Shown piece after piece: positions 30,577 through 51,657 of a stretch of 64,000 nucleotides of DNA. The position numbers and the translations under genes are program-made. The notes below the pieces were generated by a model. It ran no database searches and had not been told where the DNA came from. It was given only the letters and a program-made list of their open reading frames with translations. Location: NCBI GenBank assembly GCA_029931535.1, contig JAQPZY010001675.1, positions 1,986,501 through 2,050,500 on the forward strand, in the 5' to 3' direction. Each line of letters opens with the position of its first letter. The stretch's first letter is position 1. The DNA is from Margaritifera margaritifera. Lineage: Eukaryota > Mollusca > Bivalvia > Unionida > Margaritiferidae.

Positions 30577-30896
30577 AGTAGTATACGGTGGCGATTGAGA
30601 CCCAAACTTCCGGTGGAGGCGATTGAGACCCACCGAGCATTATGGGTCGGTGGGTCTCAATCTACTCCACCGGAAGTTTGGGTCTCAATCTGCCACCGGG
30701 TCAAGTGGGGGCACTTGAGAGCCATAGTAGGGTCGCACCGTAATGTAGTGACGAAGACAACGTCCACTACCATCAAAACTGGGGTGGGGGGTGTTTTGAT
30801 AGTAGTGGACGTTGTCTTCGTCACTACATTACAGGGGGTGTGGGGAATATAATTAATCTTTCTTGAAAAAGGGTGGTCCTAAAAAGGACCGTTGGA
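30577..30896. repeat. Left TIR of the Polinton with two large hairpins
   Basis: 320 bp, inverted copy of 51338-51657 with about four substitutions by eye. It contains two long internal palindromes: 30587-30697 (arms about 50 bp, built from GATTGAGACCCA units) and 30740-30832 (arms of 40 bp around a G-rich loop). The inner end carries a histone-type stem-loop and downstream element used by the outward-facing arm gene. Confidence 0.95.
30857..30890 (-). terminator. Histone-type 3' end signal 1 (in left TIR)
   Basis: On the - strand: AAC, then the 16-nt stem-loop GGTCCTTTTTAGGACC (six perfect pairs, four-T loop), ACCC, and CAAGAAAGA (30865-30857). This matches the replication-dependent histone mRNA 3' end and its U7-binding downstream element. 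It lies 18 bp past the stop codon of the - strand gene 30908-31456. Confidence 0.8.
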
Positions 30897-30907
30897 GGAG
30901 GAATATT

Positions 30908-31456
30908 TTATTTCCCCCAACATTGAGTTAGGAAGCCTGGGAGGTGGAACTTGTTTTTCTTCTTCTTCTTCTCCTCCTCCTTCTTCTTCTTGGGTATCCA
31001 GTCGGGATGATTCAATTGTCTGAACTTGTCCTGAATTTTCATCCAGTTCAAGTTCAGACGATTGAATTGTTTTTCTCTTTTTTCCTTAACCCACATTAAC
31101 TTGATTTTGGCGACCTCCTGTTCCATAATTTTTTTAATAATTGTTTCTACTCGGAGCAGGGCCGCTTCTTGTCGAGTGAGGATTATGCACTTTAAATTAT
31201 CATCTAATTTATGAATGCAATCCAAGACTTCTTTAAGAAGTCCTACTCGACAAGGTGAAGAGGAGTTCTTGCTCTTCTTAACTTCCTCCTCCTTCTTCAC
31301 TTCTTGAATTAAATTTATAATCAAGTTAATGTAGGTGAAGTGTTCTATTTCCCACTGCAGACTGACTGGGTACCACCACATCATTTTTTGCCTATAATAT
31401 TTAACCTCCACCATCCAGTCCCAGGCTTCCTGTAGATTGTCAATGATATCTATCAT
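30908..31456 (-). CDS. Left arm gene L1, unknown helical protein (182 aa)
   Basis: No known family recognised. The protein has a Trp-rich N-terminal part (AWDWMVEV, MMWWYP), a central KKEEE-type charged segment, a long predicted helix (residues about 95-145) and a Lys/Glu-rich run near the C terminus. It is transcribed outward, its stop lies 12 bp from the TIR, and its mRNA 3' end would be formed inside the TIR by a histone-type stem-loop. A TATA-containing module shared with two right-arm genes lies about 45-85 bp upstream of the ATG. The segment INLIINLIQEVKKEEE weakly resembles ILDVVSHIIQDMIKKEEE of the right terminal gene, so the two may be diverged paralogues. Confidence 0.75.
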   Translation of the reverse strand: MIDIIDNLQEAWDWMVEVKYYRQKMMWWYPVSLQWEIEHFTYINLIINLIQEVKKEEEVKKSKNSSSPCRVGLLKEVLDCIHKLDDNLKCIILTRQEAALLRVETIIKKIMEQEVAKIKLMWVKEKREKQFNRLNLNWMKIQDKFRQLNHPDWIPKKKKEEEKKKKKNKFHLPGFLTQCWGK

Positions 31457-31500
31457 TCTTGAAGAGTGAAAGTGTGAATGGCGTCACTGTGGAAGGCACC

Positions 31501-31542
31501 GCTTTATATGCTAGAAGCGCGGACGTGATGGAAAACATCCCC
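31501..31542 (-). promoter_or_regulatory. Promoter module P1 for gene L1
   Basis: The - strand reads ATGTTTTCCATCACGTCCGC, then GCTTCTAGCATATAAAGCGG, with TATAAAG at 31508-31502. Near-identical modules precede the + strand genes at 50098 and 51057. The TATA box lies about 50 bp upstream of the L1 ATG, a suitable distance for a short leader. Confidence 0.8.
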
Positions 31543-31544
31543 CT

Positions 31545-31740
31545 TTTTTTCCCAAAAAAACCATACAAACAAACAAAAAAAAACACACACCACACTATCC
31601 TTTTTTATATCAAGCACAAACTTACACAAAACACAAAACATACAAGGGGTAAAGGGTTTTTTTGTTGGGTAGACTATCACAAACAAAATAACATACAAAC
31701 ATATAAAACACAAATATATATAGGCAATCATTGGAAAAAT
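31545..31740. repeat. Spacer mirrored in the right arm
   Basis: This AC-rich spacer is an inverted, diverged copy of about 50600-50800: both contain TTTACCCCTT followed by GTATGTTTTGTG-like sequence and TTTTGTTTGTGATA in the same order when one is complemented. No gene inside. It shows that arm symmetry extends beyond the 320-bp TIRs. Confidence 0.65.
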
Positions 31741-31743
31741 TAA

Positions 31744-31779
31744 TCTTTTCTTGAAAAATGGGTGGCCCTTAAAAGGGCC
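31744..31779 (-). terminator. Histone-type 3' end signal 2
   Basis: On the - strand: AACAAC, stem-loop GGCCCTTTTAAGGGCC (six perfect pairs, loop TTTA), ACCCA, then CAAGAAAAGA. It lies 23 bp past the stop of the - strand gene 31802-32032. Flanks and downstream element match the histone consensus. Confidence 0.8.
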
Positions 31780-31801
31780 GTTGTTTTTTTGTTGTTGTTG
31801 T

Positions 31802-32032
31802 TTAACATGGGCATCTCCTAGAGGGTTTTCTTTTCCTTAAACTTTTTCTGACTTCTGGTCCGTACAACAAAACCCTCTTTAGACAGCCTTGTCTCTCCAC
31901 ATAAATCTGTCGATGCCATGTAGCGGTGTCTGTAATTTTTGTGATAGCCCATGAGGCCTTCACATACATTGGAAATGCTGGATTAAACAGCATTCCTGAG
32001 ACAATGTTTGAGGATTCCACACTGGTCCACAT
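31802..32032 (-). CDS. Left arm gene L2, unknown small protein (76 aa)
   Basis: No family recognised. The ORF starts at ATG 32032 and ends with a very basic tail (RKSLRKRKPSRRCPC), which could serve DNA binding or nuclear entry; that is inference. A TATATATA box on the - strand (32103-32095) lies about 65 bp upstream and the gene is divergent from L3. A histone-type stem-loop follows the stop. The consistent gene-plus-stem-loop layout is the main reason for calling so short an ORF. Confidence 0.6.
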   Translation of the reverse strand: MWTSVESSNIVSGMLFNPAFPMYVKASWAITKITDTATWHRQIYVERQGCLKRVLLYGPEVRKSLRKRKPSRRCPC

Positions 32033-32094
32033 TTTTTTCTTTAGGAGTAGTCTTGGAGAAAAAAGTCGGTGAAGCTTTATGAGACAAGCGGTAG

Positions 32095-32103: not shown

Positions 32104-32200
32104 CTTACGATCGGATTGAAATGGATCGAAATCAACTACCAATCCAAACACGCGTTACAAGTGGGTCGGTTTTTCTTCCAATGGGAAGAGAGCGGGGGTG

Positions 32201-32266: not shown

Positions 32267-32911
32267 ATGGAGACTGGAAAGACAAGTATGTATTGGAGTG
32301 AGCCTTCAATTATTAATGCTGCTGCTGCTGCTGCTTTGTTGAACTTCCGGCCGGAAGACTTGGATTTAGATTTTCTAAATCAAGAGTTTCAGTCGTCTGA
32401 GAGTACTACTACTACTGCTACACCAATGATGTATGAATTTAAAAAGAAGCAAGAGGAAGAGATGGAAATTTTTTTTAAAAAACAACGAGAAGAGGAAGAA
32501 ATGTTTCTTCTTCTTCAGCAGCAGAAAGAAGAAGAAGAGAGAAGAAGAAAAAGTGAGGAAGAAATCAGACAGCAGTTACAAGAGGAGGAGAAGAAGGAAA
32601 CAGTAAAGGAAAGCATCAGTCTTGAAGAAAAAACGGTGAGTCTTTTAGAAGAGATATTATATGAGTTAAAATGGATGACCAATGTCTATAAGTATTCTTT
32701 AACTCATCAATCACCTAAACGAAAAAGACCATCACGGGCTAAACAACATTCTTCCAAGCCTACCAGTTCTAGTGAGATACCACCACCGATGCCACCACCA
32801 CCAACGCCACCAGTGGCTACCACCATAAGCAAAACACCATCAGTAGCAGCAGCATTAACAGGATATGGATTGGGTCGTGGTAAAGGACTACGACATTTGA
32901 AGTTGATTTGA
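32267..32911 (+). CDS. Left arm gene L3, coiled-coil protein (214 aa)
   Basis: The ORF is open from 32225, but TATAAA at 32216-32221 would place the mRNA start near 32245, so ATG 32267 is chosen. The protein has a short Ala run near the N terminus, a long Glu/Lys/Gln-rich coiled coil (roughly residues 60-125), a basic stretch (SPKRKRPSRAK, likely nuclear), a proline-rich segment (PPPMPPPPTPP) and a Gly/Arg-rich end (GYGLGRGKGLRH). Function unknown. It carries a histone-type stem-loop 46 bp past the stop. Confidence 0.75.
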   Translation: METGKTSMYWSEPSIINAAAAAALLNFRPEDLDLDFLNQEFQSSESTTTTATPMMYEFKKKQEEEMEIFFKKQREEEEMFLLLQQQKEEEERRRKSEEEIRQQLQEEEKKETVKESISLEEKTVSLLEEILYELKWMTNVYKYSLTHQSPKRKRPSRAKQHSSKPTSSSEIPPPMPPPPTPPVATTISKTPSVAAALTGYGLGRGKGLRHLKLI

Positions 32912-32957: not shown

Positions 32958-32994
32958 GGTCCTTTTAAGGGCCCCCAGATTTCTAGAAAAGAAA
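32958..32994 (+). terminator. Histone-type 3' end signal 3
   Basis: CCAAC, stem-loop GGTCCTTTTAAGGGCC (five Watson-Crick pairs and one T-G), CCCA, then AGAAAAGAAA. It lies 46 bp past the L3 stop. The flank is slightly off consensus (CCCCA for ACCC). Confidence 0.7.
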
Positions 32995-33054
32995 TCAAAT
33001 TGCCAAATCAAGTAAAACTTAAAAAATCCCATTGTGTTGTATATAAGTGTGAGT

Positions 33055-33216: not shown

Positions 33217-33735
33217 TCACTGTCTGTCTCTTTTGTTCTTCTTGATATTCTTCTTCATAGGAACCCATATCTTCAAAGGAACCATTGGTGCCCTGGGTTC
33301 ATAATTTTCTTTTTCATTCTCACTGTCTTCCGTGCATCTTACTCTCTTCTTACTTTTCTTGATGATATGTTCTTCTTCTTCTTCTAGGTTTGAAGATCCT
33401 TCGGCTTCCTCCCTCTCCTCTGATAGATTTTCTTCTTCTTCTTCTTTTTCTTCTTCTTCTTCTTTCTGAGGGCACTCCGAAGACCAATGTCCTGGTCCTT
33501 TACAATGATAACAGATATCTTTTGTTTTGTCTCTCTTTTCTTTTTTTGGTTTTCGACGTTGTGGGCATTCTGGAGCCCAATGTCCTTTCTCTTGACAGAT
33601 ATAACAAGTATCTTCACTTTTATCTCGAGAGGTAGAGGAGGAGGAGTAGTCCTTACTCTTACTGGTAGTATACTTTCGAAGGACTGTCTGTAAATCTCTC
33701 ACCAAAAAATCAATCTGTCTTCTTGACTCTTCCAT
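33217..33735 (-). CDS. Zinc-knuckle (CCHC x2) protein, 172 aa
   Basis: Two retroviral-type zinc knuckles with exact CX2CX4HX4C spacing: CYICQEKGHWAPEC and CYHCKGPGHWSSEC, separated by a basic linker. They are followed by an acidic Glu-rich tract and a basic C terminus. Such knuckles bind single-stranded nucleic acid. No capsid or other Gag domain is present, so this is not a retroviral Gag. The first ATG is at 33735 (the ORF is open upstream without ATG). The gene is divergent from polymerase B: a TATA box on this strand (33804-33799) lies about 65 bp upstream. Unusual for a Polinton; a role in genome replication or packaging is only inference. Confidence 0.8.
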   Translation of the reverse strand: MEESRRQIDFLVRDLQTVLRKYTTSKSKDYSSSSTSRDKSEDTCYICQEKGHWAPECPQRRKPKKEKRDKTKDICYHCKGPGHWSSECPQKEEEEEKEEEEENLSEEREEAEGSSNLEEEEEHIIKKSKKRVRCTEDSENEKENYEPRAPMVPLKIWVPMKKNIKKNKRDRQ

Positions 33736-33798
33736 CTTTTTCAGCAGTTTTGAAAGTTCAATCACCAAAGACTGATTCTGAAGGTACGAAGCTCTCTC

Positions 33799-33826
33799 TT
33801 TATATACTCTCCTCTCTCTATATAAA
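33799..33826. promoter_or_regulatory. Divergent TATA pair between zinc-knuckle gene and polymerase
   Basis: TATAAA on the - strand (33804-33799) and TATATAAA on the + strand (33819-33826), 15 bp apart, each facing the gene it would serve. The two genes are therefore likely controlled together. Confidence 0.7.
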
Positions 33827-33870
33827 GGTACCTGGGTGAAAACTGAATCAGTTTCAAAGTAAAGTTCAAG

Positions 33871-34608
33871 ATGAAAAGATCACGCCTAAACCATGAGAAA
33901 CCAGAAGAAGAACAAGAAGAACAAGAACACACAAAGAGGCCACGACGACGAAGGTATTCTGTGCCACCTGAAACACCATTAGATGAACTACTAGCTCAAG
34001 TCCATGCCAGTGACTTCGAAGACGAGATGAGTGAACCTGAAACCTTACCACCTTCAAAACCACCCAAAACAAAAACCAACACCAGAACCCCTGACCAAGA
34101 AACACCACTATCTAGTACTTTGGCTCCTCCTGAAAATTACTATCGGATTCGAGAGAGTCAAAAAATTACCTCTCGAAAATTTAGAACCACGGCCTACACT
34201 CACACAGTACACTTCAAAGACTTTAAGTCCGAAGTACCTCCAGAGAAAGCGGCGGGGTTCATTAGCGATTTGTGGGAATCTGTGTTACAGAACTTGAAAC
34301 GGCAATGTGGAGCCAAAGAAGATGATCGCTTGAGACTAGCCATCCATCATGACAACTTGAAGAGTCCCGTTTGGATTGAGTTCAGCACCCCGGCAGAATT
34401 AACGCCAGACAAAGTCATGTCTAAAATAGAACATGTACAACAATCCAATGACAAGTTTACCATCACCGATGGAAAGGCTACACTCTACATGACTCACGTT
34501 GCTCCACCTCGAGGAAGTGGACGAAGCAGAAAACCGTTATTGGTGGACGATCTTCGTACTACCAAACAAAGTGTCGTCCAAATTGACAATACTCAAGATC
34601 AAATGTGA
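33871..34608 (+). pseudogene. polB: DNA polymerase B, N-terminal part (ends at in-frame TGA)
   Basis: 245 codons from ATG 33871 to a TGA at 34606-34608. The same frame stays open beyond it to 35334, so one stop splits a longer gene. The N terminus is acidic/basic low complexity. From about residue 95 (YRIRESQKITSRKF) it matches the N-terminal region found upstream of the Cys-rich segment in Polinton/adintovirus polymerases, including SVVQIDNTQ directly before the break. This region is family-specific; its biochemical role is not established. TATATAAA lies 45 bp upstream of the start. Confidence 0.82.
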
Positions 34609-35334
34609 TTGGCTCGAGCTATCGTGGTGGGCCGTACCTATGCTAACAAGAACGAGAGTAAAGAATGGAAAAAAGCCTGGAAGAACATTCGACGATCGCA
34701 AAGACCCAAACAACGAAAAGAAGCAGAACTTCTGTTGCAACAAGCGGGTATCCCTAAAGAGACCGTGTGTGGTATTTCTCAGATGCAGAAACTTCAAGAT
34801 GTTTTGGCTCCTCACTACACTTTGAAAGTTCACCCTCAAGAAGTGCGCGGAGATATGGTGTTTCGAGGCCCTAATTTCCCTGAAGGAAAATACATTCACC
34901 TCTATCACCATCAAGAACATTTTGATACCATTACTAGGATTACCGGATTTTTGGGATACTCTTACTACTGTGAGAGATGTGACCAAGGATTTAAAAATCG
35001 AGAGCGACACCTTCATTGCGGAGTAAGATGTCGAGGCTGTTTAGCAGACCATCCATGCCTTTCTGAACAACACCACGTCCATTGTGAAACCTGTCGACGC
35101 GAATTTGTCAGTCCCTCTTGTTACCAACAGCATCGCAAGACACAAGGTTACCAACAAAAATGTGCTTGCGACTTATTGAAATCGTGTTCCACGTGTGGAC
35201 ATCTAATTCGAACCAACGACCCAAAGAGACACGTTTGTGCTGGCAAGAAAAAATGTTCTATTTGTCATCAGATCGTCGATTTTGATCATCGATGTTTTAT
35301 TCAAAAGTTGACAAGACAGAGAAGAAAGAAATAA
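34609..35334 (+). pseudogene. polB: DNA polymerase B, Cys/His-rich segment
   Basis: Continues the frame of the preceding fragment after its TGA, beginning LARAIVVG. It has a long array of paired cysteines and histidines (CERCDQGF, CRGCLADH, CETCRREF, CSTCGHL, CSICHQI), a predicted multi-zinc region placed just before the exonuclease domain in Polinton-type polymerases. The frame runs into a stop at 35334 while the exonuclease frame starts within the same A-rich stretch (35292-35340), so a small indel separates the two. Confidence 0.82.
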
Positions 35335-37283
35335 AGAAAAATAAGAACAAGAAACAAGTAGATTTCATCTTCTTTGATTTTGAATGCATGCAAGAAACAG
35401 GCATTCACATTCCTAATTTTTGTGTGGCGGATCGGGCTTGTGATCAGTGTATTCAAGAATCGATTCATTTTCACTGTCCTCATTGTAGTCGAATTCCAGG
35501 AGGACGTGAAAAAATCTTTCGTGGAGTTAACACTTTGTCTGAGTTTGCTGAATGGGTTTTAGACCCTACCACCCACGACAGTTGGAGCGAAGAAGACATT
35601 CAACGTTATGGAGATTGTCATCGGTATGCCACCGTCATAGCTCACAATTTTTCGGGATACGATGAGCAGTTTTTACTCAATTATTATTTGAACCATGGGA
35701 CCGAACGACCTGTAGTTACCATGAACGGAAAAAAGCTCATCTACATGAAAGTAGGACAAGTTCAGTTTAAAGATTCTATGAGTTATTTGGCCATGCCTTT
35801 GAGTCGCATGCCAAAAACGTTTGGCATGACAGAAATGGCTAAAGGCTACTTTCCTCACTTTTTCAACACGGAAGCTAATCAACATGCCGTCCTACCCAAT
35901 TTGCCTGACCTTCATGATTACGACCCCGACGGAATGCGCCCCGAACAGCGAGAAGCTTTTCACACTTGGTACCGTGCTCACCAGACCGATCCATTTGACT
36001 TTCAAGAAGAGATGCTCAAATATTGTCGATCTGATGTAGATATTTTAAGACGTTGTTGTGGAAAGTTTCGAGAGTTATTTCTCGATCACGGAGAGGTCGA
36101 TCCTTTGAAAGATGCATCCACCTTACCTAAAGCCTGTTCGTTAGTCTACAGGCAAAATTTCATGCCCGAGAACCAACTAGCCATCATCGACTCCAACACG
36201 TCTCTCTTTGCTAGTCGTCAATATTCGGTCAAAGCCTTACGTTGGTTTCATTACTTGTGTGAAAAAGAAGACAAATGGATACAACATGCTAGAAACGGAG
36301 GAGGAGAAAAGAAGATTGGAGGTTATTCATTGGATGGTTTTGATTTAGAAAACCCACACACAGTATACGAGTTTCAGGGTTGTTTGTTTCACGGATGCCC
36401 TACTTGTTATCCTGATCGAGAGATGAAAGGTCCTTATTCAAAATCTACCATGGAACAGTTATACGAACAGACTTCCCAACGACGACTCAAGTTAGAAAGT
36501 CAAGGATACCAAGTGGTAGAAATGTGGGAGCACGAGTACAATCGACGTTTGAAAACCGATCCTGAATTTAAGAACATTACTCAAAGTTACGACGCGGCCG
36601 ACATCGAACCTTTAGATCCGCGCAACAGTTTATTTGGAGGACGAACCAATGCTACTCGCTTGCTCTACGACGTGAATGAATCCCAAGGAGAAGAAATCAA
36701 ATACATCGACGTGTGTTCTTTGTATCCTTGGGTGTGTAAATATGCTCGTTTTCCCACCGGCCACCCTGAAATTTTGACAGAACACATTGACGTGGAACAC
36801 ATTCGTCAATACGAAGGATTAATTAAATGTAAAGTCTTACCTCCGACAAACTTGTTTCATCCCATCTTACCTTACCATTGTCAAGGAAAACTGATGTTTC
36901 CTTTATGTCGGACGTGTGCCGAAACGTGCAACCAAGATCATCCCTGTCACCACACGGAGGAAGAACGGTATTTGATAGGAACGTGGGTCAGTGCCGAATT
37001 GTTTCGGGCTCTGGATCGTGGATACCGTTTGTTGAAAGTGTATGAAATCTGGCACTTTCCAACTACAGCCCAATACCAAAAAGACGACGCCACCAATCAT
37101 CCAGGCATTTTCTCGGGGTACGTCAATCAGTTTTTAAAACTGAAACAAGAAGCTAGGGGTTATCCTTCGTGGTGTCAAACTCCCGAAGACCAAGAACGAT
37201 TCAAAGAAGAGTACCGTAACATCGAAGGCATCACTTTAGATGAGGTGGAAAAAATGAAGGAAAAAGATCGTTTGCGAAAGTGA
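35292..37283 (+). pseudogene. polB: DNA polymerase B, exonuclease domain to motif A
   Basis: 663 codons. The 3'-5' exonuclease motif I is FFDFECMQ (Asp29, Glu31) and motif II is AHNFSGYDEQF (about residue 117). Palm motif A is IDVCSLYPWVCKY (about residue 470), the DxxSLYP form of family B enzymes. A conserved GCLFHGCPTCY segment precedes it. The polymerase would copy the element's linear DNA, probably by protein priming. The frame stops at 37281-37283, exactly where motif B begins in the next frame, so a single-base shift breaks the catalytic core. Confidence 0.9.
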
Positions 37284-38032
37284 TGCTTAATTGCTTGTGG
37301 GGAAAAATGGCCCAACGTACGATCTTACCCAAAACGGAATATGTCACCGAACCGTATCGTTACTTTCAACTAGTGGACGACAAAAGTATACTAGTCAAAC
37401 ACGTCGAAATCGTCCGCGATGATTTGATCATAGTCAATTTCGAAGAAGAACCCAAGTTTGTCAAACCTGACAAGTTTAGCAACGTAGTCATTGCCGCCTA
37501 CGTGACCGCTCATGTTCGTTTGAAATTGTATGACGAAGCGTTAGAAGTCTTGGGAGATCGTGTCCTGTACTTTGATACTGACAGTTGTATCTACATTCAT
37601 CGCCCCGGTTGCCCCCACCCTACCATTCAAGGAGATCGTTTAGGAGCCTGGACAGATGAGCACCCTCAAGACACCATTTTGAGTTTTGCCAGCGGTGGCC
37701 CTAAAAATTATGGGTACCGATACCGAGACCCACAAGGCCAACTTCACACCTCCTGTAAAGTCAAAGGGTTGACTCTGAACTATCGAACTAACCAAGTAGT
37801 GAACTTTGAGGTTTTAAAAAATGCTTTACTGTCAGGACAAGTGGAAGACTTTCGAGTACCCACGTTAGAACCTCACAAGATTGTACGACTACCTAATCAT
37901 CAAATCGTGACTCGACCTGTTCAAAAAGTGTATCGTATTGTGTACCAAAAACGAGTCAGACTTCCAGATCACACGACTTTACCTTACGGACACGTTGATT
38001 TGGAGTATATAAAAAAAAGGAAGCCGTCTTGA
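37280..38032 (+). pseudogene. polB: DNA polymerase B, motifs B and C and C terminus
   Basis: 250 codons in a frame shifted by one base from the previous fragment. It begins with motif B (LNCLWGKMAQR) and contains motif C (LYFDTDSCIY, about residue 96), the catalytic Asp pair of family B polymerases. The end (QKVYRIVYQKRVRLPDH) is usual for Polintons. Without upstream motif A in frame it cannot be active as it stands. A TATA box for the next gene (38006-38013) is embedded in its last codons. Confidence 0.9.
38006..38013 (+). promoter_or_regulatory. TATA box for the BIR gene
   Basis: TATATAAA inside the 3' end of polymerase B, about 50 bp before ATG 38062, so the BIR mRNA would start around 38037. 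Confidence 0.55.
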
Positions 38033-38061
38033 AACAGAAAAAAAAAGACAACACCAAAAAG

Positions 38062-38400
38062 ATGACTTCAACATTTGCCTTGCCTGACTATTGTGATTGT
38101 ACCAGTCGATTGAACACGTTTAAAAAATGGCCTAAAGGGGATCGATTACCCACTGCCATCTCTTTAGCCAGAGCAGGATTTGTCTACTTTGAACAGCGAA
38201 GTTTAGTGAAATGTTTCAGTTGTGGTGCAAGCATTCGCATGAGTCCTAAAGATTCAGCTATCGTGGAACATACCAGATGGTCACCAAACTGTGCTTACCT
38301 TTCTTTAGAGTTTCCACGGATGACATTACAATACTTTTCGGATGGTACAGTCGACAGGTATAAAAAAGGAACCCCTTCCAAACCTAACCCTTCATTCTAA
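38062..38400 (+). CDS. BIR-domain (IAP-like) protein, 112 aa
   Basis: A single BIR domain: SRLNTFKKWP at the start, LARAGFVY, then the zinc ligands CFSC, His in EHTRW and Cys in SPNC (C-x2-C-x15-H-x6-C), very near the usual spacing. Viral BIR proteins commonly block host cell death or bind its regulators; the domain is clear, the function in this element is inferred. No RING finger follows. The ORF is open upstream without ATG, and ATG 38062 fits the TATA box. An intact gene next to a broken second copy. Confidence 0.85.
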   Translation: MTSTFALPDYCDCTSRLNTFKKWPKGDRLPTAISLARAGFVYFEQRSLVKCFSCGASIRMSPKDSAIVEHTRWSPNCAYLSLEFPRMTLQYFSDGTVDRYKKGTPSKPNPSF

Positions 38401-38428
38401 CTTTCAACGTTAACCAAGAAGCAATAAG

Positions 38429-44285: not shown

Positions 44286-44297
44286 GGAAAAAAAATC

Positions 44298-45410
44298 ATG
44301 GAGAAACTGTTAGCTACCATTTATTACAATCCTGGCCATGCTGCTGGTTACGGAGGAGTTCAAAAATTATATCGAGCTGCTAAAAGTAAATTGAAAAGTG
44401 TACGTTTACCCGAAGTACGACGATGGTTACAAGAACAATCAACGTACACGTTACACAAACCCATTCGACGTAAATTTTCTAGAAGTACAACTCAAGTAGA
44501 AGGCATCGATCATCAATGGCAAGCCGATTTAGCCGACGTCTCTCATTTAGCCACTTACAATCGTGGTCACAAATATTTGTTTTGTGTCATTGACGTGTTT
44601 TCCAAATTTGCTTTGGTCGTGCCTTTGACCTCTAAAAGCAGTACCGAATTGGTACGTGCCTTAAAATTGGTCTTGAAACAAAGTGGACGTCAACCTTTAC
44701 GATGGCAAACTGACAAAGGCACCGAATTTCTAAACCAAGCTTTTCAAAAAGAATTGAAACAAAGACAAATTCATTTTTTTACTACCGAAAATCCTGAAAC
44801 CAAAGCTAGTATCGTGGAACGTTTTCAAAGAACTTTGAAAGAACGTATGTGGAAATATTTTACACATCAACATACTCTCAAGTACATCGACGTGTTACCT
44901 CGATTGGTCAAAGCGTACAATCAATCGTACCATCGTAGCATCGGATGTGCCCCCGAAGAGGTCAGCCCTGAAAACGAAGTGTCCGTATTTGATAAATTAT
45001 TTGGTTCACCCCAGAAGAAGAAGAAGAAAACCTTGTTGGAGTTAAAGACTGGAGATTGGGTTCGCATCGGAAAAACCAAACGTACTTTTGACAAAGGTTA
45101 TTTACCCAACTGGACCACCGAATTGTTTCGTGTCACTACCCCCGTGCGTGGACGCAATCCTCCCGTCTATAAATTGGAAGACATGCACGGTGAAGTACTC
45201 AAAGGAACATTTTACTTGCCTGAGTTACAACGAGTGACCAAAAAAGAAGACACCTTGTACGACATCGAAAGCATTCTCGAACAAAGAACACGCAAAGTAG
45301 GTAAACGTCGAGTAGAAGAAGTCAAAGTACGTTGGAAAGGATATCCACCTAGTTTTGATTCTTGGATTGCTGCTTCTCAAGTCGTCGACTACAAAAAGAA
45401 AAAGAAGTAA
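44298..45410 (+). CDS. Retroviral-type integrase with chromodomain (370 aa)
   Basis: The rve core has the catalytic triad Asp77 (WQADLADVS), Asp139 (WQTDKGTEF) and Glu174 (ASIVERFQRTL), giving the DDx35E spacing of retroviral and Polinton integrases. A C-terminal chromodomain follows (about residues 315-365; YDIESILEQR and RWKGYPPSFDSWIAA with its aromatic residues), which can direct integration to modified chromatin. It catalyses insertion with 6-bp target duplications, which matches the TTCATT found here. I see no clear HHCC finger at the N terminus. Intact, unlike polymerase and protease. Confidence 0.95.
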   Translation: MEKLLATIYYNPGHAAGYGGVQKLYRAAKSKLKSVRLPEVRRWLQEQSTYTLHKPIRRKFSRSTTQVEGIDHQWQADLADVSHLATYNRGHKYLFCVIDVFSKFALVVPLTSKSSTELVRALKLVLKQSGRQPLRWQTDKGTEFLNQAFQKELKQRQIHFFTTENPETKASIVERFQRTLKERMWKYFTHQHTLKYIDVLPRLVKAYNQSYHRSIGCAPEEVSPENEVSVFDKLFGSPQKKKKKTLLELKTGDWVRIGKTKRTFDKGYLPNWTTELFRVTTPVRGRNPPVYKLEDMHGEVLKGTFYLPELQRVTKKEDTLYDIESILEQRTRKVGKRRVEEVKVRWKGYPPSFDSWIAASQVVDYKKKKK

Positions 45411-45419
45411 ACTAACAAC

Positions 45420-45860
45420 ATGCCATTCAACACAGCAGCAACCCAGACTTCAACGACTCCTTCGCAGAGTTCTTCTCTTCAAGAATTACAAAAACAACCA
45501 CTTTGGCTGTGGTGCGGAGAACGTGTGCCTAAAAATCAAATCGTCTTTTTCTGCCAAATTTTTGTAGTGTATTGTGTCATCGGAGCAGCTATTGCTAATT
45601 TGAGTTTACAACAAGGAGACAAACAATTGTGGACTATTTTACTTAGCAGTTGCATCGGTTATCTTTTACCTAGTCCCTCTTTGAAATTTACGACAACGAC
45701 GGACAACAGTCACCACCACGGGAGTACGAGCAACGCCAGTCCACCTTCTTCTTCGTCCAGTCACCACCACAATACCAACCCTCTTTTGGAACCTTTTGAA
45801 CATCATTCTTCTGTTCACTTGAGTGACTCCTCGGACACCAGAACCACTTTGGAACTATGA
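45420..45860 (+). CDS. Conserved two-transmembrane Polinton protein (146 aa)
   Basis: Two hydrophobic helices, NQIVFFCQIFVVYCVIGAAI and WTILLSSCIGYLLP, separated by a short loop containing NLSLQQGDKQLW, then a long hydrophilic Ser/His-rich tail. This arrangement and the CQI...NL...LW..LLSS.IGY.LP.P pattern recur in many Polintons next to capsid genes; function unknown, perhaps a membrane-active virion component. Its stop overlaps the next start (ATGA at 45857-45860), a tight coupling. Confidence 0.75.
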   Translation: MPFNTAATQTSTTPSQSSSLQELQKQPLWLWCGERVPKNQIVFFCQIFVVYCVIGAAIANLSLQQGDKQLWTILLSSCIGYLLPSPSLKFTTTTDNSHHHGSTSNASPPSSSSSHHHNTNPLLEPFEHHSSVHLSDSSDTRTTLEL

Positions 45861-46867
45861 ATGACCAATTTTATTTAACGTTACCTAGTGACAGTTCCAT
45901 GAATGTGTTTCCCAACAACACTTTATGTTGTTTCACCACCAAATTACCTCAATCCATCCAATTGGATCACGATGCTCATTGGGAAGTAGGATTGGTAGAA
46001 ATCATTCATCCTACGCAAATCATGAACATCAACAAAGGTCAAAACACTATCATTGTGGAAATCTTGAACAAAAAAATACAAGATGACTTGGAAAAAAATG
46101 ATCCTAAAATCTGTGAAGGAGACAAAAATAATCCTGACATGAAGGGATCATTCAAAAAGGTCTCAGATGAAAAAAAAAAGGTCTTTGGTCAGTATACCCT
46201 GAGAATTCCTACAGGGTATTATTTTAGTTCTGGACATTTGGTGGACACTATTTAGTCCATCCTTGAAGATCAATTTGGCAAAGCCTTAAACAATAACCGA
46301 AAAATTCTACGTGTCAGATTCAATAATGTGGCACGCCGTTTCCACATGGAATTTTATATGTTCGAGCCAGATAATGGTGAAATGGTGGACGACAAAACTG
46401 CTAAAGAAAAAGGTATACCCGAGCAGGAGAGAAGATTCATGACCATTGAATTTTCTCCTGGGTTGTATGCTATTTTGGGTGGAAATAGATTGTATGCCAA
46501 TCGAAAAGTTTCAACCAACATAGAATTCGCAGATGCTTTTCGCAGCCCTATCGAAGTGAACATTGGACTGAATTTAATATTTGTGTACTCCGATGTGGTA
46601 GAGTACAGCGTGGTGGGACACACAGCTGCGCCCTTACTGAGAGTCATTCCTTTCAAAGTAAATACTGATGCTGGTGCGTACGAAGAAGGTGGAAACACGT
46701 TTCACGTTCACCGTGAATTTGTACACCCTCATTATCTTTCAGTCAGTAAATCGTATTTTGACAGTGTCAACATTAGTATAAAAGGAGATTTAGGACAAGA
46801 TGTGCCATTCATTGACAAAGGAAAAGTCACGGTGAAACTACATTTTCGAAAAAAACAAGTTCTCTAA
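45857..46867 (+). pseudogene. Minor capsid (penton-like) protein, one in-frame TAG
   Basis: A single frame of about 336 codons interrupted once by TAG at 46253-46255. The N-terminal half begins FYLTLPSDSSMNVFPNNTLC and contains HWEVGLVEIIHPTQ, features of the single jelly-roll penton protein of Polintons. The second half (YSVVGHTAAPLLRVIP, HYLSVSKSYFDSVNI) is the C-terminal part of the same family. It would occupy capsid vertices. Apart from the one stop the frame is clean, so the lesion is recent or an assembly error. Confidence 0.85.
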
Positions 46868-46892
46868 CATCTTGTAACCTCCCCCCAAAAAA

Positions 46893-47271
46893 ATGTATCC
46901 AGTGTACCGAGGAGTGGCTAGACATGGTGAGTCGAGGATTTCATGCTTTAAAAGATGCCGCTTTGACACAAGGAAAAGAATTTTTGCAAAATGTCCTCAT
47001 CGACAAACAAAATCCTAAAGAAGCCTTTATGAGAGCAGGCAAAAATGTGTTGATGAGCACTGGTAAAGATCTTTTAGGTCTCCGAGAAAATCCTATAAAT
47101 ACGCTTCACGCTTCAGGCTCTGGCATTACTTCACAGCAGCAAGGACAAGGCAGAAAGAGACGACGACGACATCGAAATCCTTTCAAAGTTCATAAAAGAA
47201 CACATGGTACTTCCAAAAAGAATAAGAAAAGAAAAAGAACCATCAGAGAATTAGACGTGTTTGATTATTAA
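46893..47271 (+). pseudogene. Small minor virion protein, frameshift near the start
   Basis: ATG 46893 begins MYPVYRGVARHG, which resembles the usual start of this protein in Polintons, but the main body is one base out of frame from about 46924 (ATG) to 47271. The body has FHALKDAALTQGKEFLQNVL and EAFMRAGKNVLMSTGKDLL, then a strongly basic tail (GRKRRRRHRNPFKVHKR). The conserved gene sits between penton and major capsid, as here. Translation from ATG 46924 could still give a 115-residue protein. Confidence 0.65.
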
Positions 47272-47286
47272 AAAAAACCATTGAAA

Positions 47287-48651
47287 ATGATGCACCGAGA
47301 TTCTTGCGAATGTACTAAGTCAGAACTAGATATGTTTACCATGCCTCCCACCATGATGACGATGCAAGAATCCCAATGGGTGGAATTTCATCCTGTATCG
47401 TCTTTGTCGGATTCAGCTCCTATCGAATTTGAAATCAAAGGACAAACCGAAGATTACATCGACCTGAATGACAGCTACTTGTACCTGAAACTCAAAGTGA
47501 TCAAAACGGCGGACAGCAGTCTTCCTGGGGATGATTCCAGAGTAGCTCCCGTCAATAATTTCATGCATTCCTTGTTCAGTGGAATAGATTTGTACTTGAA
47601 TAACAAACTGGTCAGCAGCAGTTTGGATACTTACCCTTACCGTGCTTACTTGGAAAATCTCTTGACGTATGGAAAAGAAGCCAAGAACACTCATCTGGAT
47701 GCTTCAGTGGTCTGGAAACCTGACACCGAGGGTTCCTTCAACGACACACAGGTGTCAGAACCGGCGAGGATTGAGGGTGCTGATTTTGATCATGCAAGAA
47801 TAACTCCAGCAGAGCCGCAAAATGTGGGATTTAACGACCGTCGAAAGAAAATCAGAGGGCACAGTTTAGAATTGATGGATCGTTTGCATTTGGACATGTG
47901 GTTGCAAGACAAGTATTTGTTGAACAGAGTAGATGTACGCCTGAGACTGAATCGCAGTAGTGCCGCTTTCCATTTGATGGCTTTTGCTAACGAGTGGAAA
48001 ACGGTCATCCAAGAAGCCAAACTTTACGTGCGACGTGTAGAAGTCTTACCGAAAGTGGCCAACGACATCAGTCAAACCTTGAGCAGAACCACTGCTAAGT
48101 ATCCTCTTAGACGTGTGGAAGTGAAAACCTTTACTGTGGCCGCTGGACTCCGATCCATAGTCAAAGATCACATCTTCCAAGGACAGCTCCCCAAACGTTT
48201 GCTGATTGGTATGGTCGGAAATTCAGCCTTCAACGGAGTCAACGATCAGAATCCGTTCCAGTTTCAGCACTTTAACGTCTCCAAGATAGAAGTCAGTCGA
48301 GATGGCAAGACCTTGTGTACCAGACCTTTTGAACCTGACTTTAGTGTCAACGTAAAAAATTACTTACGATCTTACTTGATCCTGTATGAAGCCACAGGAC
48401 AGTTAGGCACCAACACCAGCCACGGCATTACGTACGACGATTTTGCAGGAGGGTATGCTTTGTGGGGATTTGATTTCACTCCGGACCAAGGCAGCGATGA
48501 AGGACATTTCCACCCTATAAAATCAGGCCCCCTTCGAGCGGAACTTCAGTTTACAGCTCCTCTAGCCGAGACAGTGAATGTCGTCTTGTATGCAGAATTT
48601 GATAACACTCTAGAAATCAACAGCTTGAGAGAAGTGATTCTAGACTATTAG
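47287..48651 (+). CDS. Major capsid protein (double jelly-roll type), 454 aa
   Basis: Recognised by conserved Polinton MCP segments: ESQWVEFHPVSSLSDSAPIE near the N terminus, DLNDSYLYLKLKV, and RVAPVNNFMHSLFSGIDLYL followed by NNKLVSSS and a DTYPYRAYLENLL stretch. This protein forms the trimeric hexon-like capsomers. The start is ATG 47287 (a tandem ATGATG); the frame is open 6 bp further up without ATG. Length is usual for the family and there is no lesion. It follows the penton and small virion genes closely. Confidence 0.93.
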   Translation: MMHRDSCECTKSELDMFTMPPTMMTMQESQWVEFHPVSSLSDSAPIEFEIKGQTEDYIDLNDSYLYLKLKVIKTADSSLPGDDSRVAPVNNFMHSLFSGIDLYLNNKLVSSSLDTYPYRAYLENLLTYGKEAKNTHLDASVVWKPDTEGSFNDTQVSEPARIEGADFDHARITPAEPQNVGFNDRRKKIRGHSLELMDRLHLDMWLQDKYLLNRVDVRLRLNRSSAAFHLMAFANEWKTVIQEAKLYVRRVEVLPKVANDISQTLSRTTAKYPLRRVEVKTFTVAAGLRSIVKDHIFQGQLPKRLLIGMVGNSAFNGVNDQNPFQFQHFNVSKIEVSRDGKTLCTRPFEPDFSVNVKNYLRSYLILYEATGQLGTNTSHGITYDDFAGGYALWGFDFTPDQGSDEGHFHPIKSGPLRAELQFTAPLAETVNVVLYAEFDNTLEINSLREVILDY

Positions 48652-48665
48652 AAGAAGAAAAAAAG

Positions 48666-49153
48666 ATGCAGAACGTAGAACTAATGGAGATAGATGAGGG
48701 ATTCTGTGAAGTGAATCATTCAGAACCTAGAATAGAAGAAGAAAAAGAAGAAGAAATCAATTCAGTTCCTGAGGAGGTGTTTACTGGATTTATGGTTTCT
48801 CGATGGCCAGAACAAGAACAACATTTAGTGTCCTGTTATGCTCAGAAATTGAGTGACATCATTTACAGTCTGAGTGAAAAACATTGTTATGGATGTCAAA
48901 CCGATCATCCCAGTCAGAACAACACGAATGTTTGATGATGACAGGCGAAGAAAAATTGGATGAATATTTGGAAACAGCCTGGACACAAATCTCAGATGAA
49001 CACGTGTTGAAACAGTGGTATAAAGACTTGGTGAATTCTTCTTCTCCTCCACTTACTCCTCTGGAGATCAAGCGTATCGAAGGACTCATTGTACAGAGTG
49101 CAGACCCTAACAAACGTGAATATTCCTGGAATTACAAGACAGATCAAGTTTAA
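48666..49153 (+). pseudogene. Conserved CYGC-motif Polinton protein, one frameshift
   Basis: The first frame (ATG 48666 to stop 48935) has an acidic N terminus, then VSCYAQKLSDIIYSLSEKHC and CYGCQTDHPSQ. A second frame (about 48900-49153) carries EQHECLMMTGEEKLDEYLE and a C-terminal helical part (VLKQWYKDLV). The CYGC...HPSQ...H.CL pattern is common to a Polinton gene found near MCP and protease, and here it is cut by an indel around 48905-48930. Cys/His spacing suggests metal binding; function unknown. Confidence 0.65.
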
Positions 49154-49198
49154 AGTCAGGTGTGAATTGATAGTTCGTTATTTCAAGTGGTAAAAAAA

Positions 49199-49766
49199 AT
49201 GGATACCAGGGAACTTCATTACTTATTGATTCGCGGTTCCTATACTTCTTCTTGGAATCCTGTGGTGTGTGCTAAAGATGAACTACCTCATCGTAAACCA
49301 AAAAAACGTTCATGCCTATGTCATCAATACCGACGACAGTCATCTACCAGGAACCCATTGGGTTGCCGTGTACTTTCCCAACACTCACTGTGTGGAATAT
49401 TTTGATTCTTATGGATTACCTCCTTTGGAAAAAGACATCATCGAGTTTATGAGAAGAAATGCCGTCTCGACTCGATTCAATAATGTGAGACTACAAGGAT
49501 CCGATTCCATGGTGTGTGGACAATATTGTGTACATTATCTTCATCAACGCAGTCTTGGATATTCCTTAGAACATTTGCTGACTTATTTTGATAGTGACTA
49601 TGTTCGAAACGATGCTAAAGTACAAAGATGGTTTTGTGAACGTTATGGTTATCTCTTGTCTTTAGCTCACAATCGTAGTGTGCATCAGAATGATGTTGAT
49701 GTAGAAAGTTTGACATTTACTTTACCTTCCCAACGCTGTCAACCTTGTAAATATGTTCCTGTTTGA
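49199..49766 (+). pseudogene. Adenain-like cysteine protease, one frameshift
   Basis: ATG 49199 opens with MDTRELHYLLIRGSY and VVCAKDELP, the usual N terminus of Polinton maturation proteases. The frame then fails, and the catalytic part is in the frame open from about 49269 to 49766. There the expected residues are visible: His in GTHWVAVYF, Asp in EYFDSYG, Gln in RLQGSDS and Cys in MVCGQYC. The family cleaves capsid precursors. One indel near 49285-49330 (an A-rich tract) separates start and catalytic frames. AATAAA lies at 49821. Confidence 0.85.
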
Positions 49767-49986: not shown

Positions 49987-50030
49987 CATGTTTTCCATCG
50001 CGTCCGCGCGTTAAGCATATAAAGCGGTGC
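49987..50030 (+). promoter_or_regulatory. Promoter module P2 for gene R2
   Basis: ATGTTTTCCATCGCGTCCGC followed by GCGTTAAGCATATAAAGCGG; TATAAA at 50018-50023. Almost identical to the - strand module at 31501-31542 and similar to 50976-51015. It argues for ATG 50098 over an upstream non-ATG start. Confidence 0.8.
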
Positions 50031-50097: not shown

Positions 50098-50532
50098 ATG
50101 GCCGCAACCAAGATTACAAAGCTGAATGAAGCTATGGTTAACATTATGAGGGTGAAGAATCATTTGATGGAAACCAACCCGGAGAGAAAGACGATGACGT
50201 TCATTCAAATGGCGCATGATCTAGTAGAAGAGGTTCTGAGAGAAGAAATACTTCGGGAAAGAACAGAATGGGAAGTAGGACATCGACTACAGCAACAGCA
50301 GCAACAACAACAACAACAGCAAAGACAACAACAACAGCAGCAGCAACAACTTATGCAGTCCAACAAACTACCTGACGGCGAAGTAAGTTGCAAGATTGAC
50401 TGTGAAGAATTTGCTTTCTCTTTCACCCGAAAGAGACCTGCCTGCCTTAAAGCTGTGAGGCCCATCGTCAAACGTGGCCGCCCTGCTGGAGCTGCTACTA
50501 CTACCACTGCTACTTCACCCCAGAGAAGTTAA
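50098..50532 (+). CDS. Right arm gene R2, polyQ and AT-hook-like protein (144 aa)
   Basis: The ORF is open from 50032, but the TATA box at 50018-50023 places the mRNA start near 50045, so ATG 50098 is chosen. The N-terminal half is helical (KLNEAMVNIMRVKNHLMETN), followed by a glutamine tract of about 25 residues with one Arg, and near the C terminus IVKRGRPAGAA, an AT-hook-like KRGRP core that binds the minor groove of AT-rich DNA. Function unknown; chromatin or DNA binding is inferred from the hook. A histone-type stem-loop lies 31 bp past the stop. Confidence 0.75.
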   Translation: MAATKITKLNEAMVNIMRVKNHLMETNPERKTMTFIQMAHDLVEEVLREEILRERTEWEVGHRLQQQQQQQQQQQRQQQQQQQQLMQSNKLPDGEVSCKIDCEEFAFSFTRKRPACLKAVRPIVKRGRPAGAATTTTATSPQRS

Positions 50533-50563
50533 AAACAACATAACTTCTTTAAAAAAAACCAAC

Positions 50564-50600
50564 GGGCCTTTTAAGGGCCACCCCAAATCTCTAGAAAAGA
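50564..50600 (+). terminator. Histone-type 3' end signal 4
   Basis: CCAAC, stem-loop GGGCCTTTTAAGGGCC (five of six pairs; third pair G-G), ACCCC, then TAGAAAAGA. Located 31 bp past the R2 stop. Slightly weaker than the other copies. Confidence 0.68.
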
Positions 50601-50905
50601 TTACTACTCTCAAAATTGCCATATATATCTATATGTTTTGTATGTTTGTTTTGTTTGTTTGTGATAACCCACTTCACCAAAAAAAACCTTTACCCCTTAT
50701 ATGTTTGTGGCTTGTGTGTTTGATATATAAAATTTTTTTTTTAAAAAAATAGTTGTGTGGTGTGTGTAAGTTTAATATAAAATTTTTTTTAAAAAAAAAA
50801 TAGGTATTGTATGGTGTGTGTTTGATTTTTATCAAAAGTAGTTTCTTTTAGGTCCGCGCTTTTAGAGTAAGGGGTGATGGAGTGCAAAATCCGCGAAGCC
50901 TAGAA
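50600..50905. other. Right-arm spacer, mirrored in left arm
   Basis: No gene. The first 200 bp are the inverted counterpart of 31545-31740. At 50851 a fragment GGTCCGCGCTTTTAGAGT repeats part of the arm promoter module without a TATA box. Confidence 0.6.
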
Positions 50906-50927
50906 TGACGTCAAAGGAATGACGTCA
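50906..50927 (+). promoter_or_regulatory. Two CRE/ATF palindromes
   Basis: Perfect TGACGTCA at 50906-50913 and 50920-50927, 14 bp apart, about 80-100 bp upstream of the TATA-like box of gene R1. The same octamer occurs in the left arm at 32201. Confidence 0.75.
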
Positions 50928-50975
50928 GACGCGGGGTAGTGGGGTGATGTTTTTTTTGTTATTTTTAGGTGTAAG

Positions 50976-51015
50976 GGATGTTTTCCTTCACGTCCGCGCT
51001 TCTAGTATATTAAAA
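50976..51015 (+). promoter_or_regulatory. Promoter module P3 for gene R1
   Basis: GGATGTTTTCCTTCACGTCC followed by GCGCTTCTAGTATATTAAAA; TATATTAA at 51006-51013. Third copy of the arm promoter module, about 45 bp upstream of ATG 51057. Confidence 0.75.
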
Positions 51016-51056
51016 CAACGTCTTCCCTAGTTAAGCTACCCCGTTTATTCAAGAGA

Positions 51057-51320
51057 ATGAACAGCTTAAGAAACCTTAGGCAAGTAAAACAAATCTTGGA
51101 TGTGGTATCTCACATCATCCAAGATATGATAAAGAAAGAAGAAGAGAAGAGGGAGAGTAAAATCCCGATCAGAACCCACCCCATGCTTGAAGAAGATTGG
51201 GAACATGAAGCAGACCATCCTCCCTTCTTTTTAACCTTTTTAAAGACAACAAAAGAAGAAACATGGAGGGGGAGCTGCCCTGCATGCAGGGCAAAGCCAG
51301 GGAGGTTCCCCCACCTCTAA
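51057..51320 (+). CDS. Right arm gene R1, unknown protein (87 aa)
   Basis: A short ORF with a helical N-terminal half (LRQVKQILDVVSHIIQDMIK), a KKEEEKRESK segment and a C-terminal CPAC pair (SCPACRAKPG). It faces outward, ends 17 bp from the right TIR, and its 3' end signal is inside the TIR, mirroring gene L1 on the left. The IIQDMIKKEEE segment weakly resembles L1. Function unknown. Called for its promoter, position and stem-loop more than for the protein itself. Confidence 0.65.
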   Translation: MNSLRNLRQVKQILDVVSHIIQDMIKKEEEKRESKIPIRTHPMLEEDWEHEADHPPFFLTFLKTTKEETWRGSCPACRAKPGRFPHL

Positions 51321-51337
51321 AATACACTCAAAACGAA

Positions 51338-51657
51338 TCCAACGGTCCTTTTTAGGACCACCCCTTTTCAAGAAAGATTAATTATATTCCCCACACCCCC
51401 CGTAATGTAGTGACGAAGACAACGTCCACTACTATCAAAACACCCCCCACCCCAGTTTTGATGGTAGTGGACGTTGTCTTCGTCACTACATTACGGTGCG
51501 ACCCTACTATGGCTCTCAAGTGCCCCCACTTGACCCGGTGGCAGATTGAGACCCAAACTTCCGGTGGAGGCGATTGAGACCCACCGACCCATAATGCTCG
51601 GTGGGTCTCAATCGCCTCCACCGGAAGTTTGGGTCTCAATCGCCACCGTATACTACT
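51338..51657. repeat. Right TIR of the Polinton with two large hairpins
   Basis: Inverted copy of 30577-30896. Hairpins at 51402-51494 and 51537-51647; the terminal one is essentially perfect here, whereas the left copy has two mismatches. The inner end carries histone-type signal 5. Confidence 0.95.
51344..51377 (+). terminator. Histone-type 3' end signal 5 (in right TIR)
   Basis: CCAAC, stem-loop GGTCCTTTTTAGGACC (six perfect pairs), ACCCC, then CAAGAAAGA (51369-51377). It lies 24 bp past the R1 stop. Confidence 0.8.

Follow-up and report, generated by a model that had tools for sequence, protein, structure and literature searches.

Histone-type promoter boxes and 3' ends at the arm genes of a Polinton from Margaritifera margaritifera suggest expression tied to host DNA replication

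The arm genes of a Polinton in the bivalve Margaritifera margaritifera end in a bipartite histone-type 3' signal like that of the host's own histone genes, and this signal is kept over many copies of the element. Together with histone-type promoter boxes, these ends suggest that expression of the arms is tied to host DNA replication. On the evidence of sequence, we consider it likely, with a probability of roughly 0.8, that the arm genes form a histone-mimicking, replication-coupled class of Polinton genes whose transcripts are processed by host SLBP and U7. The element was found in a window of 64 kb, by which is meant the whole stretch of DNA analysed, and the host genome (2.45 Gb) was searched for histone genes and further Polinton copies.

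As in Polinton/Maverick elements and adintoviruses, the element (30577-51657) is bounded by terminal inverted repeats (TIRs) and a 6-bp target site duplication (TSD), and carries polymerase, integrase, ATPase-like and candidate capsid genes. The left TIR (30577..30896, forward strand) and the right TIR (51338..51657, reverse strand) are each 320 nt long and 99% complementary to one another; their inner edges coincide with the stem-loops of arm genes A and E, and the TSD, TTCATT, was read by eye directly outside them at 30571-30576 and 51658-51663. Two long palindromes lie in the TIRs beside these stem-loops, and matches to mir-876 and mir-4877, which fell below the cut-offs of those families and were rejected, are located at the same palindromes. 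The DNA polymerase matches phrog_1907 (E 3.1e-17), which places it in family B, with protein priming putative; its reading is distributed over three overlapping ORFs (34783-38032), so the polymerase gene of this copy may be broken. The integrase is retrovirus-like by its match to the phrog_956 transposase (E 5.1e-12), and the ATPase match is weak (best E about 1e-3). A gene with 1,565 relatives, most of those that bear a name being 'F54H12.2-like' in bivalves, and with no Pfam match, is presumed to encode the capsid from its place and size in the Polinton, and the gene at 49278-49766, for which the profile search gave no informative match, is taken from its position to be a putative adenain-like protease.

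Each of the five arm genes is followed, in sense orientation, by a 16-nt stem-loop and, beginning 10-13 nt past the stem, a purine-rich element of the form AGAAA(A)GA. On the reverse strand, the 3' end of gene A (30857..30890) comprises the stem-loop GGTCCTTTTTAGGACC at 30890-30875 and AAGAAAGA at 30864-30857, and that of gene B (31723..31779) comprises GGCCCTTTTAAGGGCC at 31779-31764, AAGAAAAGA at 31752-31744 and a further downstream word, TTGCC, at 31727-31723. On the forward strand, gene C (32958..33004) has GGTCCTTTTAAGGGCC at 32958-32973, AGAAAAGA at 32985-32992 and TTGCC at 33000-33004; gene D (50564..50620) has GGGCCTTTTAAGGGCC at 50564-50579, AGAAAAGA at 50593-50600 and TTGCC at 50616-50620; and gene E (51344..51377) has a stem-loop identical to that of A at 51344-51359, followed by AAGAAAGA at 51370-51377. 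TTGCC is absent from A and E, and the hairpins of these two genes lie at the inner edges of near-identical TIRs, so they represent one sequence and not two independent cases. The stems begin 17, 22, 46, 31 and 23 nt past the stop codons of A to E, respectively; that of C contains one U-G pair and that of D one mismatch, in keeping with the earlier note. Scores against the Rfam model RF00032 exceed the 34-bit cut-off for A (35.0), B (44.2) and E (34.6) and fall below it for D (28.2) and C (23.5). The pattern GG..CTTT..AG..CC was found five times where 0.04 occurrences were expected in 64 kb by first-order Markov simulation, and a looser hairpin definition, for which 2.5 sites were expected, recovered the same five sites and no others. 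By these definitions the five arm hairpins are the only ones in the window, which bears out the earlier claims that the signals stand at all five arm-gene ends and that the core genes lack them; a random scatter across the element, which would have counted against the earlier reading, was not seen. The genes without the signal occupy 33217..49766 and comprise the polymerase ORFs, BIR, ATPase, integrase, capsid and protease-position genes, others, and, as a sixth gene beside the five, a CCHC zinc-knuckle gene (33217-33735) close to the left arm.

When the arms are compared with host histone genes, as had been proposed, the two agree in hairpin stem and loop, in spacing, in the purine element and in a candidate further element downstream. 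At the ends of host H1, H2A, H2B, H3 and H4 genes stand 16-nt hairpins of the form seen in the arms, followed by a GAAAAGA-like element and mostly by a TTGCC-like word. The arms resemble metazoan replication-dependent histone genes (RF00032), with the stem-loop placed after AAC or AAA and the purine element 10-13 nt on, and their stop-to-stem distances (17-46 nt) may be set beside the 27-38 nt of host histone genes. They differ in the letters directly after the stem, which are ACCC in Polintons and ACA, ATA, ATG or ACT in host histones. Host purine elements are variants differing by a base or two: a single regular expression matched 83 of 86 Polinton ends and 8 of 21 host ends, and inspection by eye showed the remaining ends to be variants. 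With RF00032, the histone ends of the host in L103 score 36.1-38.0 bits, above four of the five arm ends in the window; many other Polinton copies outscore them. A search with the Rfam model for host U7 snRNA yielded none among the 65 scored of 776,085 candidates, and the control genomes were equally without a match.

Other copies in the same genome carry the signals too; their absence from related Polintons, which would have spoken against the earlier reading, was not seen. Of 75 Rfam histone-3'-end matches scored in the host genome, all that could be assigned belong to arm genes in further copies of the Polinton. A single rule was applied to every gene end that tblastn had picked. The 91 arm-gene ends, made up of A 42, B 34, C 5, D 1 and E 9 with a few duplicates among them, all differ at 0-2 positions from a 21-nt consensus, whereas all 33 core-gene ends differ at 7-9; by the analyst's tally, at least 13 arm ends with the signal came from outside the Rfam selection. 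In the C72 copy, arm ends score 33.3-45.4 bits, four of the five over the cut-off and the fifth at 33.3 against 34. Covariation across copies is modest, with two of six stem pairs changed on both sides and 124 of the 500 shuffles attaining two measures. Stems with a C-A mismatch form a class of 11 among 89 sites. Many of the copies are probably dead. A genome contig search gave four distant capsid loci from other genomes, none with a Histone3 match; tblastn aligns these loci with core genes but not with any arm gene, and they therefore provide no test of the arm signal. In a viral contig collection, single hexon and integrase queries and a 38-row capsid alignment found no relatives, and two histone-3'-end patterns gave 0 matches.

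Beyond the 3' ends described in the earlier note, the arms possess TATA-like and histone-type promoter boxes, as does the host histone cluster. A 19-nt box, exact in host H2B and with one change in host H1, precedes genes A, D and E: before A it is TTTTCCATCACGTCCGCGC (31517..31535, reverse strand), identical to the host H2B box and followed by TATAAA at 31508-31503, and before D (49991..50009) and E (50981..50999), both on the forward strand, it has one mismatch. Further upstream of E lies TTTCTTTTAGGTCCGCGC (50842..50859, forward strand), an exact copy of which stands before H4 in one (L105) of the three types of histone repeat in the host. Gene B has CCATTTCAATCC (32113..32124, reverse strand), one mismatch from the host H2A box GCATTTCAATCC, with TATATATA next; taken on its own, the window gives this short box little weight (two sites at one mismatch or fewer, 0.33 expected), and across copies 29 of 30 B loci have the H2A box upstream with no more than one mismatch. 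In the host it is exact in two of the three repeat types and has two mismatches in the third. The promoter of gene C, upstream of 32267..32911 on the forward strand, has TGACGTCA and TATAAAG and neither host box. With up to two mismatches, the 19-nt box is found upstream of 32 of 39 A loci, 7 of 8 E loci and the sole D locus; it is absent at the other seven A loci, the other E locus and the C locus, and from the core genes of the window. Genome-wide it occurs 3,718 times, against 0 in a reversed control, and 65 of the first 100 occurrences stand in Polinton geometry.

The arm genes encode proteins of 182 aa (A, 30908..31456, reverse strand), 77 aa (B, 31802..32035, reverse strand, start codon chosen by the analyst), 214 aa (C, 32267..32911, forward strand; 228 aa if the first ATG, at 32225, is used), 144 aa (D, 50098..50532, forward strand) and 87 aa (E, 51057..51320, forward strand, with a conserved C-terminal CPACRAKPGR). 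Median dN/dS values of 0.22-0.33 across copies indicate purifying selection on A, B and E. Gene D contains an IxCxE motif (IDCEE), which resembles that of some Rb-binding proteins. Unlike histone genes, the arm genes belong to a mobile element and their products are not recognised as histones; the idea that they are diverged histones was rejected as no Pfam histone match was obtained. Paralogy among the arm genes, suspected from shared helices, was not supported, A against D reaching only E 0.005 and 0.007 and other compared pairs being worse. No homologues of A and B were found at E 1e-3 among 5.8 billion proteins searched.

It is improbable, though the best placed of the alternatives, that the arms merely carry captured, unused host DNA, with histone promoters and 3' flanks brought along and the mRNAs polyadenylated in the ordinary way. 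Capture would give a shared flank reaching past the known signal, as TTGCC does, and an AATAAA coincides in part with gene A's own stop codon. However, the signal ends five coding sequences without clear relationship, in diverged copies, and information per column, at sites mostly chosen by their hairpin, amounts to 1.0-2.0 bits in the hairpin and purine element, with a single loop column at 0.9, and drops to less than 0.7 bit from 44 nt past the stem start onward. AATAAA or ATTAAA, moreover, occurs within 250 nt past the stop of two of 18 core ORFs in the window and of none of the five arm genes, a result qualified by the hexamer at the stop of A; the earlier note had assigned AATAAA to at least two core genes.

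Less probable again is a decoy, in which arm transcripts, instead of being regulated by SLBP or U7, would capture these factors and so interfere with the histone mRNA of the host. The many copies that outscore host histone ends, and the number of promoter boxes, could yield many competing transcripts, yet the A, B and E reading frames are under purifying selection, and a decoy would not need promoters of histone type. Slightly behind it, and also very unlikely, is a role at the level of DNA, the hairpins and boxes serving replication, integration or packaging of the element: two of the five hairpins do lie at TIR inner edges beside the palindromes, but all five, the three inner ones included, share the orientation of a gene and begin 17-46 nt past its stop, with the form and spacing of host histone genes. 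In AT-rich DNA, short hairpins whose loops are T-rich are frequent, as the looser expectation attests, but chance or intrinsic-terminator-like hairpins are refuted by the signal in the copies, and the host histone form, the window counts and the arm-core difference also leave them a negligible probability.

Under the preferred reading of a replication-coupled gene class, RNA polymerase II would start at the histone-type promoter while host histone genes are on, host SLBP would bind the hairpin and host U7 snRNP the GAAAAGA element, and the transcript would be cut a few nucleotides past the hairpin to give a short, poly(A)-free mRNA, translated and stable during the cell's DNA replication. Arm proteins would then fall in S phase, with replication factors and nucleotides at hand. 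At A and E, cutting would also end transcripts before the terminal palindromes.

Parvo-, papilloma-, polyoma- and adenoviruses use S phase or push cells towards it, and gene D, with its IxCxE motif, would align the element with such S-phase-dependent animal DNA viruses. To our knowledge, the mRNAs of these viruses rely on poly(A) signals rather than on the processing used for histone mRNAs, and descriptions of the histone stem-loop treat it as marking replication-dependent histone mRNAs. PMC11071296 describes adintoviruses as having a PolB with an OTU-like domain and an integrase with a chromodomain, and passages of it mention histone-like proteins in other viruses, not histone-type RNA ends. 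Within the portion of the open-licence PMC literature covered by our search, Polintons or adintoviruses were nowhere found to be credited with histone-type promoters or 3' ends, which accords with the novelty suggested earlier.

A broader proposal, which we favour with less assurance, is that a whole lineage of animal Polintons has two classes of gene: an ordinary core, and arms that copy host histone genes at both ends and from different classes (H2B/H1 for A, D and E, H2A for B, and H4 for the box before E). Such a lineage would read the host replication clock, make poly(A)-free mRNAs and, if D binds Rb through its motif, might help to set that clock; it would be the first DNA virus or transposon to run a full programme of histone-type expression. 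A virus-like element that uses both halves of the histone system, promoter and 3' end, on the scale of 3,718 boxes and 91 arm ends, offers a natural non-histone gene set for separating the roles of promoter, hairpin, purine element and the unexplained TTGCC element. If this reading is true, poly(A)-selected RNA-seq would miss the arm transcripts, and the reading would predict when such Polintons are active.

The Polinton in the window has a length of 21,081 bp, derived from its TIRs (30577-30896 and 51338-51657, 320 nt each) together with TTCATT, which was read by eye on both sides of the element. The genes identified in it include pol and integrase, with a weak match for the ATPase, as well as a CCHC zinc-knuckle gene, a BIR-domain (inhibitor of apoptosis) gene at 38062-38400 and a gene in the capsid position that has 1,565 relatives, the nearest named ones being in bivalves such as Mercenaria and Ostrea; a molluscan host is likely. 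Part of the BIR gene is repeated near 38760 (repeat D13). Since the DNA polymerase reading (34783-38032) is split over three overlapping ORFs, this copy may be inactive. Each TIR also contains two long near-perfect palindromes with arms of 40-44 nt (30593-30690 and 30740-30832; 51400-51496 and 51544-51641), and in some other copies gene A is followed by the beginning of the inner palindrome. Outside the element, repetitive ORFs at 59853-60886 indicate a tandem minisatellite-like array. Among distant capsid loci, Polinton-like pieces occur in four contigs filed as bacterial genomes (MAGs, including one of a tubeworm symbiont and one of a mussel symbiont); host contamination of genome collections is the probable source.

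The earlier note had claimed histone-type mRNA 3' ends on all five outer, or arm, genes of this element (A, B and C on the left, D and E on the right) and none on the core genes between them. The five stem-loops and purine-rich elements lie where it placed them, in sense and 17-46 nt past the stop codons. Three of these ends score above the cut-off of the Rfam histone 3' stem-loop model and the remaining two below it, and 24 kb searched at E up to 5 gave no other Histone3 match. Against 0.04 expected per window, a strict hairpin pattern is observed five times, and a loose pattern, for which 2.5 are expected, finds the same five only; the signals are thus not equally frequent at random places. 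The outer two are not independent of each other, because both belong to the TIRs.

The host genome, 2.45 Gb in size, carries tandem histone repeats ~8 kb apart, and three repeat types were compared. In these, H3, H4, H2B, H2A and H1 all possess the terminal hairpin GGCCCTTTTNAGGGCC (H1: GGTCCTTTTCAGGACC) 27-38 nt past the stop, followed by AC or AT and then GAAAAGA or variants such as GAGAAGA, GGAAAGA and GAAAAGG. The end of H3 in one repeat type, TTTCAAGAAAAGAG, is close to those of arm genes A and B, and that of H2B in another, TCTCTAGAAAAGA, is identical to that of gene D; hairpins and GAAAAGA-like elements are alike in host and Polinton. Beyond hairpin and purine element, most of the host histone and Polinton ends that were read have TTGCC, or a word close to it, ~31-39 nt past the stem; we know of no name for this third 3' element. 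As raw frequencies, TTGCC occurs within 70 nt of the stem in 77 of 86 distinct Polinton ends (in 76 of 86, TTGCC or a close variant lies at 33-39 nt) and in 8 of 21 distinct host ends, with TTGTC, ATGCC or GTGCC in 10 more; a TTGCC-like word is found at 31-35 nt in 17 of the 21. In the window it is present at 31723-31727, 33000-33004 and 50616-50620, and is absent after genes A and E.

Histone-type promoter boxes are an addition to the earlier note. Genes A, D and E share TTTTCC(A/T)TC(A/G)CGTCCGCGC, with a TATA-like box after it. Host H2B carries gene A's 19 letters unchanged in all three repeat types, and host H1 has the box with one difference. From base composition, 6e-6 sites of this box at up to one mismatch are expected per window; three are observed, and no further site appears at up to four mismatches. 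Gene B has CCATTTCAATCC plus a TATA-like box; in host H2A, GCATTTCAATCC is exact in two repeat types and has 2 mismatches in the third, with TATAAA after each. By itself this short box is weak evidence, because another one-mismatch site lies at 298 in the window. Between D and E, ~200 nt upstream of the coding start of E, 50842-50859 holds the letters of the H4 promoter box of one host repeat type, and similar TCTTTTAGGTCCGCG boxes lie upstream of E in other copies. Across loci, the 19-nt box (at most 2 mismatches) is upstream of 32/39 A, 7/8 E and the single D locus, and the H2A box (at most 1 mismatch) is upstream of 29/30 B loci; the sole C locus has neither. The 19-nt box has 3,718 sites across the genome, some of these in host histone genes, and the reversed pattern has 0. 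Among the first 100 of these places, letter variants give 26 D-to-E pairs on the same strand (0.8-1.7 kb) and 13 A-D pairs on opposite strands (15.8-19.2 kb), with 65 places in all in Polinton geometry.

The signals are also present in other Polinton copies of the same genome. The Rfam model gave 508,685 first-look candidates, of which 75 were scored and all exceeded the cut-off; this is a subset rather than a full ranking, as host histone ends (36.1-38.0 in one histone locus) are missing from it and a dozen of the 75 score below 38.0. None of the match places overlapped histone places, as compared by eye with 150 of 645 histone candidates scored. The 68 loci fetched around the matches contain 80 hairpins by pattern. 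Of these, 37 follow A, 28 follow B, 7 follow E and 1 follows C; one follows a protease-position gene, where another comparison gives D, and 6 follow no identified protein, four of them being cut by the locus end. A further 2 A, 2 B and 1 E come from loci L110-L114. Since the hairpin was the basis for choosing such loci, arm genes merely beside a chosen one were examined as well, and by our tally at least 13 arm ends lie outside the Rfam selection. A choice by tblastn, which passes over ends with too diverged a protein C-terminus, gave 91 arm-gene ends, and 85 of them have a hairpin by the strict pattern. The other six comprise one overlap artefact (L007) and five ends with substitutions at one or two positions (L010 A, L005 B, L011 C, L010 C and L008 E). 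Under one rule for all, a 21-nt consensus, all 91 arm rows have 0-2 mismatches (80 with 0, 9 with 1, 2 with 2), a few being duplicates (A and E of the C72 copy fetched twice, L007 A counted twice), whereas all 33 core rows, comprising 18 ORFs of the window (three of them pol pieces) and 15 rows from other loci, have 7-9. The C72 copy, a second Polinton whose capsid-position protein is 81% identical over 319 residues and whose arm proteins are 52-76% identical to those of the window, retains all five signals (33.3-45.4 bits). Some copies (L007 and L008) place an E-type gene immediately inward of an A-type one and in the same orientation, unlike the window, where each has its own end of the element. 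Such arrangements make it seem that arm genes are shuffled together with their signals.

Stem variants include GGCTC/GAGCC, GGCCC/GGGCC and GGTCC/GGACC plus U-G forms, with a C-A mismatch at 11/89 sites. In 36 distinct hairpin sequences 97.2% of cells pair, with changes on both sides in 2 of 6 stem pairs, and sliding the stem partner reduces pairing to at most 63%; for these sites, selected by pattern, the covariation score was matched in 1/500 shuffles and two other measures in 124/500. For pairs of near-full-length copies at a dS of 0.05-1, median dN/dS is 0.33 for A (48 pairs), 0.22 for B (91) and 0.22 for E (5); the A, B and E proteins are therefore kept by selection. No outside homologues of the A and B proteins were found in a search of 5.8 billion proteins (E 1e-3).

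In passages of the papers concerned, Hydractinia is described as an invertebrate whose histone genes are expressed in S phase and carry hairpin and purine element (PMC5011920), and in the clam Lucina the hairpin is said to be on all histone mRNAs, and purine-rich elements were detected there in four genes (PMC6210712). According to passages of a survey, adintoviruses carry candidate oncogenes and other animal viruses histone-like proteins; histone-type RNA ends are not described in these passages (PMC11071296). In agreement with the earlier note, which knew of no precedent in Polintons or adintoviruses, literature searches on Polintons, adintoviruses, transposons and viral mRNA yielded no report of such a histone-type element among the titles and abstract starts listed.

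At the level of sequence, the arm genes bear both halves of host-like histone gene signals in many copies, and the examined core genes do not. Arm genes would be transcribed together with host histone genes and their transcripts cleaved via SLBP/U7, giving mRNA without poly(A) and limited to S phase. Why this should apply to the arms and not to the core may be read in two ways. On one reading, the arm proteins would ready the cell or its chromatin so that the element can replicate; gene D contains an IxCxE motif (IDCEE in the window, IDCDE in the second copy) that resembles that of some Rb-binding proteins. On another, hairpin cleavage would end transcripts before they reach the terminal palindromes, although this leaves the three inner genes unexplained. 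The observation of the earlier note is confirmed and extended: judged from their signals, the arm genes appear to form an expression class that is new, and in the literature searched unreported, in an element of a known kind.
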